Part shown: in pieces, positions 17,750 through 63,202 of the stretch
Numbering within the stretch: position 1 is the stretch's first letter
How the letters are laid out: every line of letters starts with the position of its first letter
Source of the DNA: Thermotoga maritima MSB8
GTDB taxonomy: Bacteria > Thermotogota > Thermotogae > Thermotogales > Thermotogaceae
DNA: 64,000 nt
Direction: 5' to 3'
NCBI RefSeq assembly: GCF_000008545.1
Contig: NC_000853.1
Location: 572,465 to 636,464 of the forward strand
The notes under the pieces: generated by a model
Told to the model about the DNA's origin: nothing
Seen by the model: the letters and a program-made list of their open reading frames with translations, nothing else
The model's database searches: none
Made by a program: the position numbers and the translations under genes

Positions 17750-18481
17750 ATGAAAACCGATACGGAATGGCTTCTTTGTGATTTCCATGTACACACGAAC
17801 ATGAGTGACGGGCATCTTCCTCTGGGAGAAGTGGTGGATCTGTTTGGAAAACATGGAGTGGACGTGGTTTCCATAACAGATCATATAGTCGACCGAAGAA
17901 CTCTCGAGCAGAGAAAGAGGAACGGAGAACCGCTCGGAGCGATCACAGAAGATAAGTTTCAGGATTATTTGAAACGTCTCTGGAGAGAACAGAAAAGGGC
18001 CTGGGAAGAATATGGAATGATCCTCATACCGGGTGTTGAGATCACGAACAACACGGATCTGTACCACATAGTCGCCGTGGATGTGAAGGAGTACGTAGAT
18101 CCTTCACTGCCTGTAGAAGAAATTGTGGAGAAGTTGAAGGAGCAAAACGCTCTTGTTATAGCCGCGCATCCGGATAGAAAAAAGCAAGATGAAGAACATC
18201 TTTCGTGGTATCTCTGGGCGAACATGGAGCGTTTCAAGGACACGTTCGACGCGTGGGAAATCGCGAATCGTGATGACCTGTTCAACTCTGTTGGTGTGAA
18301 AAAGTATCGATACGTGGCGAACTCCGATTTTCACGAACTTTGGCACGTTTACTCCTGGAAAACCCTTGTGAAGTCGGAGAAAAACATCGAGGCGATAAAG
18401 GAAGCAATCAGAAAGAACACGGATGTGGCGATCTATTTGATGAGAAAAAACAGGTTGAGTTCTCTGTCAGATGTGATATAA
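17750..18481 (+). CDS. PHP-domain metal-dependent phosphoesterase
   Basis: Cytoplasmic PHP-family enzyme expected to cleave a phosphoester with two or three bound metals. N-terminal DFHVHTNMSDGHLPLGEVV gives the HxH and Asp ligands. SITDHIVDRR supplies the next motif, and AAHPDRKK and NSDFHEL supply later ligands. No signal peptide is present. The 243 residues hold one domain. Its substrate is unknown; nucleoside 3',5'-bisphosphate or 5'-oligonucleotide activity is known for some relatives. ATG start after AAAGGAGTGACGATAA. Its last bases overlap the promoter of the next gene. Confidence 0.88.
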   Translation: MKTDTEWLLCDFHVHTNMSDGHLPLGEVVDLFGKHGVDVVSITDHIVDRRTLEQRKRNGEPLGAITEDKFQDYLKRLWREQKRAWEEYGMILIPGVEITNNTDLYHIVAVDVKEYVDPSLPVEEIVEKLKEQNALVIAAHPDRKKQDEEHLSWYLWANMERFKDTFDAWEIANRDDLFNSVGVKKYRYVANSDFHELWHVYSWKTLVKSEKNIEAIKEAIRKNTDVAIYLMRKNRLSSLSDVI

Positions 18482-55374: not shown

Positions 55375-55403
55375 ATTATAACACAATGCTGCATATCAAT
55401 GCT
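55375..55403 (-). promoter_or_regulatory. promoter and possible operator of the arginine transporter
   Basis: Minus-strand TATAAT (55375-55380) preceded by TGT gives an extended -10. Two direct copies of CAATGCT (plus strand 55384-55390 and 55397-55403), 13 bases apart, cover the -35 area, where a repressor could bind. The stop codon of the upstream permease lies within this element. Confidence 0.6.
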
Positions 55404-56712
55404 TTATGAAGAGCAACCACAAAGCGAAGGCGAGAGCGAGAATCCACGTGAACCAGTGTACTTCTTTCGATTTCCCGGAGAAGAGCTTCACCAATGCATA
55501 GGAGATGATGCCGAGCGCTATTCCGTTGGCTATAGAGTATGTGAGCGGCATAGTTATGACGGTAATGAACGCGGGGAGCGCTTCTGTGATGTCATCCCAT
55601 TTCACTCTTCCAAGGTTTCCGATCATGAGCGCCCCAACGAAGATCAGAGCGGGAGCGGTCGCGTATCCAGGAACCGTCTGGGCGAGAGGGGCGAAGAAGA
55701 GCATGGCGAGCATACATAGGGCAACGACGAGAGCCGTGAGACCAGTTCTTCCTCCTTCAGCGATACCCGCACCGCTCTCGATGTACGTGGTCACTGTCGA
55801 AGTTCCAAAGAGTGCACCTACAGAAGTTCCTATCGCGTCCGCGAGGAATGCCCTGTTCGCCCTCGGAAGCTCTCCGTTCTTCATGAAACCAGCGCTCTGA
55901 GCGAGTCCTGTGATGGTACCGAGTGTGTCGAAGAAGTCAACGAAGAAGAAGGTGAGAACAACGATCCAGAAGTCGAGGCTCAAAAATCCAGAAAAGTCGA
56001 GCTTCATGAACGTCGGAGATATATCTGGAACGGGACCGACGATTCCCTGGTACTTCGTGACTCCTATGCCGGGGATGGCACCCACAAGCGTGGCCACGAG
56101 AATCCCTATCATCACCGCTCCCGGGATCTTCCTGTGGTAAAGCGCCACGATCACCAGGAGCCCTACGACCGTCACGAGCACACCGGGATTCGTGAGATCG
56201 CCGAGAGTAACGGAAGTGGCAGGATTGGATACAACGATTCCCGCGCTTCTCAACCCTATGAACGCGATGAAGAAACCGATACCCGCGGAGATGGCCACTT
56301 TTATGGACTCGGGTATGATCCCGGCGACGAACTTTCTGAACCCAACGAGTGTCAAGCCTATGAAGATCAGACCTTCAACGAACACGGCAGCGAGGGCCAC
56401 TCTCCAGTCTATCCCCATGCCGAGACACACGGTGTAGGTGAAGTACGCGTTCAGTCCCATACCGGGTGCGAGCGCGAAAGGATAGTTCGCGAAGAAGGCC
56501 ATGACGAGAGTGGCTGTGGCGGATCCCAGTATCGTTGCGACCATGAAGGCTCCGAAGAACTGCTGGTACAGGGGGCTGCTCGCGTCTACACCAACCGCCT
56601 GAACGAGGATGGAAGGATTCACAAAAACGATGTAGGCCATGGTGAGGAAAGTAGCGATACCCGCGAAGATCTCTGTTTTCACGTTCGTCCCGTTCTCTTT
56701 GAGACGGAACAC
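55396..56712 (-). CDS. NCS2-family purine (adenine/guanine/hypoxanthine) permease
   Basis: 438 residues with 12-14 membrane segments. Signatures: TMAYIVFVNPSIL near the start, FALAPGMGLNAYFTYTV, DFFDTLGTITGLAQ and TSTVTTYIESGAGIAEGGRTG. These place it in the AzgA/PbuG/PbuO branch rather than the UraA branch, so adenine, guanine or hypoxanthine are probable substrates. I start at GTG 56712, 8 bases after GGAGG; an ATG at 56781 would add 23 residues without a ribosome site and across a hairpin. Confidence 0.9.
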   Translation of the reverse strand: MFRLKENGTNVKTEIFAGIATFLTMAYIVFVNPSILVQAVGVDASSPLYQQFFGAFMVATILGSATATLVMAFFANYPFALAPGMGLNAYFTYTVCLGMGIDWRVALAAVFVEGLIFIGLTLVGFRKFVAGIIPESIKVAISAGIGFFIAFIGLRSAGIVVSNPATSVTLGDLTNPGVLVTVVGLLVIVALYHRKIPGAVMIGILVATLVGAIPGIGVTKYQGIVGPVPDISPTFMKLDFSGFLSLDFWIVVLTFFFVDFFDTLGTITGLAQSAGFMKNGELPRANRAFLADAIGTSVGALFGTSTVTTYIESGAGIAEGGRTGLTALVVALCMLAMLFFAPLAQTVPGYATAPALIFVGALMIGNLGRVKWDDITEALPAFITVITMPLTYSIANGIALGIISYALVKLFSGKSKEVHWFTWILALAFALWLLFIKH

Positions 56713-56742
56713 ACAGCTCACCTCCGATATAAAAAATTTAAG

Positions 56743-56758
56743 GGGATCTCTGGATCCC
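56743..56758 (-). promoter_or_regulatory. leader hairpin upstream of the purine permease
   Basis: On the minus strand GGGATC-CAGA-GATCCC forms a 6-bp stem, followed a few bases later by a T-rich run (TTAAATTTTTT) and then by the permease ribosome site. It lies beyond the binding-protein terminator, so it belongs to the permease leader. It could be an attenuator or mRNA stabiliser. The sequence lacks the conserved core of the purine riboswitch. Confidence 0.5.
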
Positions 56759-56799
56759 GTACTTTGTTTTGATTTTCTCATGTTTTCTTTAAAGGAGTT

Positions 56800-56836
56800 T
56801 TAAACAAAAGAAAAGCGGGAGGAACAGCCTCCCGCT
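56800..56836 (-). terminator. intrinsic terminator of the sugar-binding protein gene
   Basis: AGCGGGAGG-CTGTT-CCTCCCGCT (56814-56836, read on the minus strand) is a 9-bp GC-rich stem followed by TTTCTTTTGTTT. It abuts the stop codon of the binding-protein gene. Confidence 0.92.
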
Positions 56837-58095
56837 CACTCGCCGTATTCTTCCTTGAGATACTCCCTTATCTTCTGATCCGCCGTCTTTATCGCAGTTT
56901 CCATGTCCACCTTTCCGTTGATGAAATCGGAGAACATGTTTCCAACCACCGTTCTGATCTCGTACCATACACCGATCTGTGGATCGAACACGGCGTTGTC
57001 TATCTGCTTCAATGGTATTTCGAGCAGAGGATCGGACTTCGCCGCTTCCTTCCAGATCGACGTTTCGAGGGCGCTTCTTCTCACGGGAATGTAACCCGTG
57101 TTGATCGCCCAGTAAGCGGTGACTTCTGGTGATATGAGGTACTTCATGAACTCCCAGGCTGCTTTCTTTTCCTCTTCGCTTGCCGTGTTGAACATGATTA
57201 TATCCGTTCCGGCAAATGGAACTTTGTTCGTCACCCAGGTGGGAACTGGAGCCCAGCTCCAGGTGAACTTACCCTTCGTGGATTTCTCAACGTAGGGTCT
57301 TCCCGCTATCGTGCTTATGTACATCATGATCTTCTGCTGACCGAAGATCCCGTCGAGGTATCCACCCTGGGAGTACGCGATACCATCGTCCACCATCTTC
57401 TTCACGAAAGCGAGAACGTCCCTTGTTTCCTGACTGTCGATGTTGGAGACCCACTTTCCATCGACCTGTTTCAGGATGGAACCACCGCGGAGTGTGAGGA
57501 GTATCTGGAAGAAGTCAACGGTCGTTCTGAAACCAAAACCGTACTGATCGATCTTTCCGTCTCCATCGAAGTCTTCTGTCATGATTCGCGCCGCTTCGTA
57601 AAGCTCATCGATCGTTTTGGGAACATCCACGCCGTACATCGCAAAAGCGTCCGCGTTGTAATAGAGCACGTAGAGACTCTTGTTGAACGGAACCGCGTAG
57701 ATGGTGTCTCCCCACATACAGTTGTCCCTCAAAGGTTTGAAGATGTCTTCCCACTCTTCCTTCGTGAGGCCTATCTTCGGGTCGTTCACGAACTCGTTCA
57801 GAGGCTGCACAACACCGCTCTGGATGAGTTTCGCCGTCCAGTTGGAATAGGCCTGCGAGATCGTGGGAAGTTCTCCTGCCTGCGCTGCCGCGAGGAGCTT
57901 CTGAGAGAGTGCACCGTAGTTTCCAACGTAGACCGCTTCGACCTCGATATCCGGGTGGAGTTCGTTGAAGGTGTTCACTATCTCCTGGAGAGTTTTACCG
58001 TGTCCCCCGCCCATGGCGTGCCAGAACGTGACCTTCACCTTCGCGAGGGCAAAAACACTGAGAATCACCATGAGAGCAACGAGAAATTTCTTCAC
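56836..58095 (-). CDS. carbohydrate ABC transporter solute-binding protein
   Basis: 419 residues, family 1 extracellular binding protein of the MalE/UgpB type. Signal peptide FLVALMVILSVFALA, then VTFWHAMGGGHGKTLQEIVNTF, a UgpB-like opening (FWHAMGG). DGDGKIDQYGFGF resembles an EF-hand-like calcium loop. GTG 58095 after GGGAGGGATTCCT. Divergent from two permease genes. The sugar or sugar-phosphate ligand is not predictable; the FWHAMGG start and the nearby exported phosphoesterase hint at a phosphorylated ligand. Confidence 0.9.
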   Translation of the reverse strand: MKKFLVALMVILSVFALAKVKVTFWHAMGGGHGKTLQEIVNTFNELHPDIEVEAVYVGNYGALSQKLLAAAQAGELPTISQAYSNWTAKLIQSGVVQPLNEFVNDPKIGLTKEEWEDIFKPLRDNCMWGDTIYAVPFNKSLYVLYYNADAFAMYGVDVPKTIDELYEAARIMTEDFDGDGKIDQYGFGFRTTVDFFQILLTLRGGSILKQVDGKWVSNIDSQETRDVLAFVKKMVDDGIAYSQGGYLDGIFGQQKIMMYISTIAGRPYVEKSTKGKFTWSWAPVPTWVTNKVPFAGTDIIMFNTASEEEKKAAWEFMKYLISPEVTAYWAINTGYIPVRRSALETSIWKEAAKSDPLLEIPLKQIDNAVFDPQIGVWYEIRTVVGNMFSDFINGKVDMETAIKTADQKIREYLKEEYGE

Positions 58096-59461: not shown

Positions 59462-59914
59462 GTGAAGAAGCTGGTCGTATACATCCTTCTCATATTCGGT
59501 GCCGTTGTCATGCTGGGTCCTTTCATCTGGATGCTGCTCACCTCCTTCAAAGCACCTTCGGAGGTTCAGCAGTGGCCCCCGAGCTTCTACACGAAGAACT
59601 TCGCTTTCTCGCGCGATGTGAAAGTGATCCTGAAACCAGGTGTCCAGAGGGTCGCAAAAGGAGTCAGCTTGAGAGAAGCGTACGCTCTGAAAACAGCAGA
59701 GGAAAATCTGCTCACCATCACGGTGAACGACGACCCGTTCCACAGAGGAACGATGACGATCCCCCTCAAAGGGGCAAAATACACAACAGGGGTGGATGTT
59801 GAAAGAGTCAAAGAACTCTCCTCGAAATCCCCGGTGGAATTCTCCTGGAAAACACCGGAAGAGTTTTTCGAACAGTTCTTCATATACTACAAGAGCGGTG
59901 GGCAAAACTGGTGA
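59462..59914 (+). CDS. N-terminal part of a MalG-like permease (first frame)
   Basis: 150 residues. Starts with MalG-type helix 1 (LVVYILLIFGAVVMLGPFIWMLLTSFKAPSE) and the following WPPSFYTKNFAFS, as in family permeases. Residues 35-150 are a polar, presumably extracytoplasmic, segment. TGA at 59912-59914 ends the frame, and the rest of the permease continues in the -1 frame from 59911. GTG 59462 follows GAGGTGATAGC. Interpreted as the 5' part of one permease whose reading switches frame, or one half of a two-protein permease. Confidence 0.8.
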   Translation: MKKLVVYILLIFGAVVMLGPFIWMLLTSFKAPSEVQQWPPSFYTKNFAFSRDVKVILKPGVQRVAKGVSLREAYALKTAEENLLTITVNDDPFHRGTMTIPLKGAKYTTGVDVERVKELSSKSPVEFSWKTPEEFFEQFFIYYKSGGQNW

Positions 59915-61548
59915 ACGAAATTCTGAGTTCAACTGAAGGGGCTCTGAGAACCATCTCTCAGATGAAGCGCTTTGTGAACATCAGAATAAAAGATGAGGAG
60001 GAAAAGGAAAGATTTCTCTCGTTTCTCGAGGCTGTGAGCGGAGAACTCTCTTCTTTCCAGGAAAAGGTGCTCGGTATGAAGGCGGGTACCACTCTCATTC
60101 TCTCCGACGAAGAAGTGAAGAAACTCTATGAACTTCTCGATGGTTTACAGCTCGAATATTCTGGAGACAACCCACTCGTTCCTGTCTACAGAAAGAACGT
60201 GGCCTCTCCCTTCGAAGAGGTGAAAAGAAACGTTTCTTACTACCTCGAGGTCAGCGGCTTCTTCCAGAGCGTTCAGAACCTCGCTGTGGAAAAAGACATC
60301 GTCGCCCGCTCGATGAAAAAAGATGAAAGAAAGACTCTCTTTTTGAAAAAGATCGAAGACTTCCCCGACAGAGAGCTCGTGGAAAGACTCCTGGAGGAGT
60401 CGGAAAACCCCGTTGAGGACTACGTCTCTTTGAAAGAGAAAGAACTCTCGGAGAAACACCGCGTGGATCTTCTCACCATCGCTTCGGTGAAGCCGGTTGT
60501 TTCTTCTCTGATCTCCCTCGCACAGGAAAACGGAATCGAAACAGAGAGTTTCTCGCAGATGATCGCTGAAATGGACGTCAAACTCACTGGAAGCAGCACC
60601 TACAAAGTGTTGAAGTCGAAACTCTCTCAGCTCGATCTGAATGAAAACTTTCTCAACGAAGTGGCCAGTTATCTCAGAAACGTTGCATTTCTCAGAAAGG
60701 CCTACGAGGACGCGATGAGCTCGTGGAAGATCGTGGACGCCCCGGATTTCGTGAAGGAAGTCCGGGTGAAGGGTGGAGAAGTGATAGAGATCCTTCTGGA
60801 GGGTGTTCCTTCTGTCTTTCTGAGCGACGAGACCATCGACTCTGTGAAACTCAAGTTCTCGTTCTCCGAGGTGCTGGCCAACATCTTTCAGAACTACGTC
60901 GATGCCTGGAACGCCGCTCCTTTCCCGAGGTACTACTTCAACACGTTCTTCGTTGCGACAACAACGACACTGCTCGAGGTGGTCACCGCCTCCCTTGCCG
61001 CGTACGCCTTCTCCTGGATGGTCTTTCCCGGAAGGGACTTCATCTTCGGACTCTTCCTTGCAACCATGATGATCCCAGGTGAGGTGCTCCTCGTTCCCAA
61101 CTTCATCACGATCTCGAAACTCGGCTGGATTGACACCTACTACGCCCTCATAATCCCATGGATCGTCAGTGTCTTCGCGATATTCCTTCTGAGACAGCAC
61201 TTTTTGACCATACCGAGAGAACTCTTCGACGCGGCGAAGATAGACGGGTGTTCTCACTGGAGATTCCTCTGGCAGATGGTGGTGCCTCTCAGCAAACCGG
61301 CTGTCATCACTTCTGCACTTCTCAAATTCGTTGGAAGCTGGAACGCGTTCCTGTGGGTCCTCATCGTCACGAACAGCGAAAAGTACAGAACACTGCCCGT
61401 TGGACTCCAGGCGTTCAGTTCAGACGTGGGAACTCAGTACAACCTGCTCATGGCGGCCGCTACGTTCTCGATACTCCCCGTGGTGATACTCTTCATCTTC
61501 ACCCAGAAGTACTTCATTCAGGGAATCGCGAGGACCGGATTGAAATGA
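59911..61548 (+). CDS. C-terminal part of a MalG-like permease with large extracytoplasmic insert
   Basis: 545 residues. Residues 1-325 are soluble, helical and Glu/Lys/Ser-rich with no known domain. From residue 328 the MalG core appears (NYVDAWNAAPFPRYYFNTFF), with five membrane helices and the EAA loop RELFDAAKIDGCSHWRFLWQMVVPLSKP. Helix 1 is missing because it lies in the preceding frame. The frames overlap GTGA, and the possible ribosome site is weak. A -1 shift on the AAAA at 59904-59907 would join them into a roughly 695-residue permease. Confidence 0.85.
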   Translation: MNEILSSTEGALRTISQMKRFVNIRIKDEEEKERFLSFLEAVSGELSSFQEKVLGMKAGTTLILSDEEVKKLYELLDGLQLEYSGDNPLVPVYRKNVASPFEEVKRNVSYYLEVSGFFQSVQNLAVEKDIVARSMKKDERKTLFLKKIEDFPDRELVERLLEESENPVEDYVSLKEKELSEKHRVDLLTIASVKPVVSSLISLAQENGIETESFSQMIAEMDVKLTGSSTYKVLKSKLSQLDLNENFLNEVASYLRNVAFLRKAYEDAMSSWKIVDAPDFVKEVRVKGGEVIEILLEGVPSVFLSDETIDSVKLKFSFSEVLANIFQNYVDAWNAAPFPRYYFNTFFVATTTTLLEVVTASLAAYAFSWMVFPGRDFIFGLFLATMMIPGEVLLVPNFITISKLGWIDTYYALIIPWIVSVFAIFLLRQHFLTIPRELFDAAKIDGCSHWRFLWQMVVPLSKPAVITSALLKFVGSWNAFLWVLIVTNSEKYRTLPVGLQAFSSDVGTQYNLLMAAATFSILPVVILFIFTQKYFIQGIARTGLK

Positions 61549-61561
61549 AGGAGGCGATGAT

Positions 61562-63202
61562 ATGAAAAAGCTCGTTCTTCTGATTCTGATTCTTTCCTGT
61601 GCGGTCTTTGGAGAGCTCTTCTACGGAAACCTTCACTCGCACACGTCTTACTCCGACGGTTCCGGAACACCGGACCAGGCCTACGAGTACGCGAAAAGGT
61701 ACCTCGACGTTCTCGCGGTGACGGACCACGCTTACTACTTTGCCCAGAAGATCAACGGAAAGACAAAACCCTATTTGACAAAGCTCGCTGCGGAGAGGCA
61801 CACAAAAGACGGTGAATTCGTCGCACTTCAGGGTTTCGAATGGACCGCGGGAGTGGGGCACATAAACGTGTACGAGTCTCTCGAGTGGATCGACAGAAAC
61901 CAGGAAAGTTCTCTAGAAGGTTTCTACAGGTGGCTCGTTGAACACAAAAAACTCGCCCAGTTCAACCACCCCATAAGCACCTTTGGCACCTTCGATTCGT
62001 TCCGCTATTTTCCTGAAGCGGACCAGTATGTGAATCTGATCGAGGTGGGAAACGGGAACTGGTCCTCCGGAGACGTGATAAACGAAGAGATGTTCGGAAA
62101 CTACATCCTCGCTCTGAACAAAGGATGGCACCTCGGTGCTACCGTGGGACAGGACAACCACAAGCCCAACTGGGGGAGCGCGAACGAAGGAAGAACCGGT
62201 ATCGTAGCAGACACTCTGACCTACGACGACATCATGGACGCTCTCTGGAAGAGACACACTTTCGGAAGTGAAGACAAGAACGTCAAAGCGCTCTTGAAAA
62301 GCGGCTCCCATCTGATGGGGGATATCGTTTCTGTGGAAGATCTCTCTCCACAGAAGATCAGTCTCGAGTACGAAGACACGGAAAAACTCCTCTATCTTGC
62401 CGTTATCTCTCAGAGTGGGACCGTTCTGGAGCTCAGACCTAACACGGAGCGACTGAACTTGACCCTTTCGGTCACGCCTCCAGATGGATACGAGTGGTAC
62501 TTTGTCTACATGAAACAGTTCGACGGTGATGAGATAGTCACCTCACCGATCTGGTTCCAGACACCTTCTCCTGTCTACGTGAACAGTGTGAGAGTCTCTC
62601 CAGAAGAGATACACGACGGTGAATCGGCGAAGGTCTACTTCGAGATCTACAACGTGACCGGTGAAGACCAGAATGTGAAGCTTTCTGTTCTTCTCGATGA
62701 AAATCCGCTGAGAGAAGTGGAACTGAGTTTTTCACCGTACCAGGTGAAAAGATTCGTCGTTCCCACGGGATCGCTGGAGAAAGGCTACCATCGTGTTTCC
62801 TTCGTTGTGGATGGAAAACTCGTCCAGTCGAGCGGTTTCTCTGTGAAAGAAAAACAGAAAGGTGTGATCATGATCGACACGCTCCACGAGAACGATCACC
62901 TGGAAGAACTCAAAGCGCTCGCAGAAGAGCTGGAAAAGAGAGGCTACAACGTGAAGTACCCGAAGGTGATGCTGAAGGACCTGGAAGGTGTGGACATCCT
63001 CATCATCTCAACTCCCAAAGAAGGTGGATTGAGCTTTGCAAAGAAGCTTTCGAACAAAGAGATCGAGGCCATTGAGAACTTCAAGGGCAAGATCTACATC
63101 GTCCCGGGTGGCGACGAAGAGTACAGGAAGCTCTATCTGGAGAAGATAAAAGGGGAGGTCGTCACGCTCGAGGAATTGAGAAAGAAACTGCTCGAGGAGT
63201 GA
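61562..63202 (+). CDS. exported PHP-domain phosphoesterase with Ig-like and Rossmann-like C-terminal domains
   Basis: 546 residues. Signal peptide KKLVLLILILSCAVFG; Cys13 makes a poor lipobox, so lipidation is uncertain. PHP domain about 20-260: metal ligands His25, His27 and Asp32 (NLHSHTSYSDG), VTDHAYYF, FEWTAGVGHINVY, FNHPIS and GQDNHKPNWG. About 330-430 is a beta-rich Ig/CARDB-like domain (YVNSVRVSPEEIHDGESAKV). The last 110 residues look Rossmann-like (VIMIDTLHENDHLEELKALA; VDILIISTP). Probably cleaves a phosphodiester outside the cell. ATG follows AAGGAGGCGATGAT, 13 bases after the permease, so it is in the transporter operon. Confidence 0.82.
   Translation: MKKLVLLILILSCAVFGELFYGNLHSHTSYSDGSGTPDQAYEYAKRYLDVLAVTDHAYYFAQKINGKTKPYLTKLAAERHTKDGEFVALQGFEWTAGVGHINVYESLEWIDRNQESSLEGFYRWLVEHKKLAQFNHPISTFGTFDSFRYFPEADQYVNLIEVGNGNWSSGDVINEEMFGNYILALNKGWHLGATVGQDNHKPNWGSANEGRTGIVADTLTYDDIMDALWKRHTFGSEDKNVKALLKSGSHLMGDIVSVEDLSPQKISLEYEDTEKLLYLAVISQSGTVLELRPNTERLNLTLSVTPPDGYEWYFVYMKQFDGDEIVTSPIWFQTPSPVYVNSVRVSPEEIHDGESAKVYFEIYNVTGEDQNVKLSVLLDENPLREVELSFSPYQVKRFVVPTGSLEKGYHRVSFVVDGKLVQSSGFSVKEKQKGVIMIDTLHENDHLEELKALAEELEKRGYNVKYPKVMLKDLEGVDILIISTPKEGGLSFAKKLSNKEIEAIENFKGKIYIVPGGDEEYRKLYLEKIKGEVVTLEELRKKLLEE

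Follow-up and report, generated by a model that had tools for sequence, protein, structure and literature searches.

In a study of 2008, the MalG1 and MalG2 permeases of the Thermotogales were described with a hydrophilic region of ~500 residues between transmembrane helices 1 and 2 (PMC2246101). Both proteins are encoded in the genome of Thermotoga maritima MSB8, where their open reading frames measure 823 and 833 amino acids from start to stop. The same genome carries malF2 (TM1837), a pseudogene with an authentic frameshift (PMC2246101). The locus described here likewise concerns a sugar permease gene of this genome that is broken by an indel, but it is another gene, and the lesions in malF2 are of single bases.

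The permease gene lies towards the end of the window, the stretch of 64,000 nucleotides that was analysed and that spans bases 572465–636464 of a single-contig genome, and occupies two open reading frames on the forward strand (Table 1). The frames are offset by −1 and share the four bases GTGA, and a run AAAA (59904–59907) stands just before the stop of the upstream frame, all in agreement with the coordinates and layout that an original prediction had read from these letters. The upstream frame holds one hydrophobic helix, the motif WPP and ~106 residues of a large extracytoplasmic insert, and its GTG is preceded by a Shine-Dalgarno-like GAGGTGA with a duplex of −11.9 kcal/mol. A comparison with related genomes suggests, with a probability of about 0.92, that this is a MalG/UgpE-type ABC importer permease gene, which normally runs over ~701 codons in one frame and has been broken here by a 19-base deletion. 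A literature search found neither papers naming TM0595–TM0602 nor data on protein or RNA from the locus.

Table 1. Position of the features discussed, in window coordinates.
Feature	Position	Strand	Remarks
5' permease fragment	59462..59914	+	GTG start, 150 aa; helix 1, then TSFKAPSEVQQWPP
3' permease fragment, −1 frame	59911..61548	+	GTG, 545 aa; remaining insert, helices 2–6, EAA-type loop
Site of the proposed 19-base deletion	between 59899 and 59900	+	from pairwise alignments with G001–G006
Part of the gene that encodes the large extracytoplasmic insert	59582..60885	+	bounded by the flanking motifs WPP and FQNYVDAW; deletion site inside
Partner permease, MalF/UgpA type, 420 aa	58190..59452	+	PF00528
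Substrate-binding protein	56836..58095	-	PF01547; nearest curated family UgpB; divergent
CehA/McbA-type PHP metallohydrolase with signal-like N-terminus	61562..63202	+	directly downstream of the permease pair
PHP-domain gene	17750–18481, indel at 18005	+	intact here; syntenic G002 copy lacks seven bases and is frameshifted

The downstream frame matches PF00528 over its residues 359–539 with 80.4 bits against a cut-off of 26.4, and an intact orthologue also exceeds this cut-off (78.5 bits). The permease assignment within the earlier label "MalG-type" was thereby upheld. The label itself can be refined: the cut-off of 261 bits for the NCBIfam MalG equivalog NF008231 was reached neither by the downstream frame (72.0) nor by the intact orthologue (72.4), and the best-scoring equivalog, UgpE (NF008210, 147.9 bits), likewise remained below its own cut-off of 297 bits. 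Among permeases of known structure, the membrane domain is related to E. coli MalG (2r6g chain G, phmmer E 3.9e-15) and to mycobacterial SugB (7cad chain B, phmmer E 9.7e-27), both of which have a short loop between helices 1 and 2 without an insert domain. The permease described here belongs to the same superfamily and the same phylum as MalG1 and MalG2 and has its very large extracytoplasmic insert at the same position, but it is nearest to UgpE. By hhalign, the membrane domains match with a probability of 99.9%, whereas the inserts, compared by sequence profile only, reached 16% over 54 columns. As judged from these profiles, the insert is the third large one at the helix 1–2 position in Thermotogales after those of MalG1 and MalG2, in a different permease family and with no detectable sequence relation to them.

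To assess the junction, six other Thermotoga genomes (G001–G006) were aligned to it pairwise and strand-aware, a check suggested in the original prediction. Each of the six has a single stop-free frame of 704–705 codons, and each has 19 more bases at the junction. The alignments place these bases in one gap at 59896–59900 for five of the relatives and, for G005, in two parts of 12 and 7 at 59903/59907. The segment that is missing here consists of six codons and of one further base, the first in an Arg codon; this residue (Arg153) is invariant among 26 orthologues from across the order. Elsewhere in the gene there are no indels relative to the two nearest species, and those relative to the other congeners are in-frame or compensated by neighbouring ones. 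One long stop-free frame was also found in 41 of 45 genomes order-wide, while two were broken by other lesions and one apparently lacked the gene. Close relatives are therefore intact and the disruption here is a unique indel, which is the pattern of a recent-indel pseudogene.

The −1 relation of the two frames follows from 19 modulo 3: a loss of 19 bases would shift the frame by −1, into TGA 59912–59914, where the upstream frame ends. Because the gene is intact in all near relatives and 19 bases have been lost here, the split would be a recent lesion and not a translational trick. The most probable origin is a deletion that recently abolished function in the lineage that was sequenced, and it is known from one T. 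maritima assembly. The original prediction had argued from the odd number of helices in the second frame that both parts belong to one joined protein, and this is correct for the ancestor and likewise for all near relatives, in which there is one frame. The causes that it offered do not hold as stated. One extra or missing base at the junction had been considered; the loss is of 19 bases, which excludes a single-base sequencing slip, so that sequencing error is left only as a less probable source of the 19-base gap.

A comparison with the nearest species gave dN/dS values of 0.12 for the 5' fragment, 0.13 for the remaining insert and 0.01 for the membrane domain. Three amino-acid changes are unique to this genome, compared to three and five in the two nearest species. 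Both halves have been under purifying selection up to the recent past, and therefore the lesion is either young or not present in cells at all. Few frame-changing indels were found across the syntenic 64 kb in comparison with G002. The seven-base loss that breaks the PHP-domain gene in G002 (Table 1) indicates that small deletions of this kind occur in the clade.

It is rather unlikely that T. maritima cells do have the 19 bases and that only the assembly lacks them, through a cloning or assembly artefact. Such an artefact would concern the origin of the gap only and agrees with a deletion in the lineage on an ancestrally single frame and on the absence of recoding. Shotgun errors are mostly of one or two bases in runs, so that a clean 19-base gap outside a repeat would be unusual among them, and genuine small deletions were found in the clade. 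On the other hand, relaxed selection is visible in neither half, whether by dN/dS or by unique changes, and the assembly also lacks a separate region of ~9 kb that is known in other MSB8 stocks (PMC4447916; PMC3636130). The absence of that region was put down to a deletion carried by a laboratory variant (PMC4447916; PMC3636130). The resequenced ATCC genomovar has 1,869,612 bases, 8,887 more than the 1,860,725 here, and the difference is mostly accounted for by this ~9-kb region, which lies between TM1847 and TM1848.

Two of the causes put forward earlier fare worse than an artefact. Translation of two polypeptides, coupled at the GTGA overlap and assembling in the membrane as a true split permease, would fit the overlap, the good conservation of both reading frames and a weak Shine-Dalgarno-like stretch before GTG 59911 (−7.4 kcal/mol with the anti-Shine-Dalgarno sequence, a score that 2 of 41 internal codons surpass). 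It is nevertheless improbable, since all six congeners have a single frame and none of the relatives is split at the junction, and since GTG 59911 is an inherited Val codon, which occurs in the nearest relatives as part of LVNEI (orthologues of G002 and G003). The second piece would moreover have five helices and a soluble head on the wrong side of the membrane unless translocated, and a recent lesion accounts for the conservation of both frames. The least credible reading, which can almost be dismissed, is that the two frames are joined by programmed −1 frameshifting at AAAA 59904–59907. A −1 slip at this run would indeed restore the frame, but 6/6 congeners read through the junction in one frame, and the bases of the run belong to the ordinary codons GCA AAA CTG in G002. 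The zero-frame codons here (GGT GGG CAA AAC TGG TGA) contain no heptamer of the form X XXY YYZ; the slip site is thus neither conserved nor present, and no relative has a frame break there. Even a joined product would be without conserved residues, including the invariant Arg. With the deletion as a plain cause, recoding is removed as a false lead.

After a deletion of 19 bases, helix 1 and a quarter of the insert would be left on the first fragment; helices 2–6 and the other three quarters would be left on the second, if it is started at GTG 59911. We infer that the two would fail to form a working permease, because the 325-residue soluble head of the second would have to cross the membrane without a signal and because a conserved stretch is missing from both. 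T. maritima MSB8, the model strain of the phylum, may thus be without a permease that has been kept by almost all of its relatives, which would matter for transporter work and for growth models of T. maritima. What remains is a broken gene of the ordinary sort whose cause is clear; the domain that it carries is conserved and has been little studied.

This domain, measured from the motif WPP that follows helix 1 to the motif FQNYVDAW that precedes helix 2, has 441–442 residues in the genus and 441–532 among 42 orthologue sequences, with the upper values elsewhere in the phylum. The original prediction of a large insert of about 445 residues was therefore close to the ~440 found in intact orthologues. 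Named records with the insert include Thermosipho, Mesoaciditoga and Marinitoga. In three of the closest outside relatives, two from the Ardenticatenales (L057 and L058) and one Sumerlaeota metagenome-assembled genome (L059), the membrane domain is 47–52% identical and fewer than 10 residues lie between the same motif and FQNYVDAWN. The presence of the insert across Thermotogota and its absence from these three argue for an insertion that was old, precise and kept, and by this distribution the insert is genuine, old and common to the phylum. A Pfam search with the insert alone found no family common to several orthologues. Tentatively, the insert might represent an undescribed extracytoplasmic domain family that was acquired at the helix 1–2 loop by a single gain in the ancestor of the Thermotogota, separately from the insert of MalG1/MalG2; the phylum would then repeatedly have given its sugar permeases large outer domains, which perhaps serve to keep binding proteins in place within the wide space beneath the toga.

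Structure prediction was performed with an intact Thermosipho orthologue (L046) and not with the nearest Thermotoga orthologue. The full-length model had a mean pLDDT of 75, the insert being better than the membrane part, and E. coli MalG chains matched it with Z 10.5–11.5 and an rmsd of 5.1–5.4 over 221–226 residues. Modelled alone, the insert was predicted with confidence, at a pLDDT of 84.8 and a pTM of 0.74. It is mostly helical, with strands supplied by both ends, and these terminal strands are read as forming a base next to the membrane. The deletion, at residue 118 of this model, lies immediately ahead of a long helix, so that the N-terminal and C-terminal strands would come to lie on different fragments. 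In intact orthologues, the insert would be a helical domain outside the cytoplasm that rests on a small beta base at the membrane. No solved structure clearly resembles it: a PDB sequence search with the insert gave only weak helical matches, and Foldseek with the insert model gave no match at E ≤ 0.001. Helical bundles proposed by VIA-align (Z up to 10.2, rmsd 3.9 over 110 residues) were discarded as being below the level at which this tool is trusted for helices. By analogy with the P2 loop of MalF, the most plausible role of the insert would be to dock or position the substrate-binding protein. The insert would be a reasonable structural target for studying the docking of binding proteins in Thermotogota.

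The partner permease adjoins the insert-bearing permease gene in the examined regions of G002, G037, G020 and G009 and in several named contigs. The gene for the substrate-binding protein is adjacent here and in G002, and lies elsewhere in G037, G020 and G009. The CehA/McbA-type gene is also downstream in G002, and it was not found beside the pair in the other three. Beyond the binding-protein gene, a one-base indel relative to G002 was noted at 56726, among the initial codons of the frame 55396–56781 on the reverse strand, which is listed as an NCS2-type permease and the true start of which is probably further in.

Some other genomes differ at the orthologous gene. In G041 (L177), of the same family, the insert-bearing permease is apparently missing, and the closest match is a 277-codon permease without insert. 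One extra base breaks the membrane domain of the orthologue in the single-contig genome G008 (L175, 3300–3600), and in G032 an in-frame TAG replaces a conserved Trp codon (L176, about 4087). The orthologue of Marinitoga lauensis is frameshifted near the EAA region (contig L060, 5197–5203), where a long-read error is possible. The lesions in G008, G032 and L060 all differ from one another and may be errors or true losses; taken together, these differing lesions hint that the transporter can be lost.
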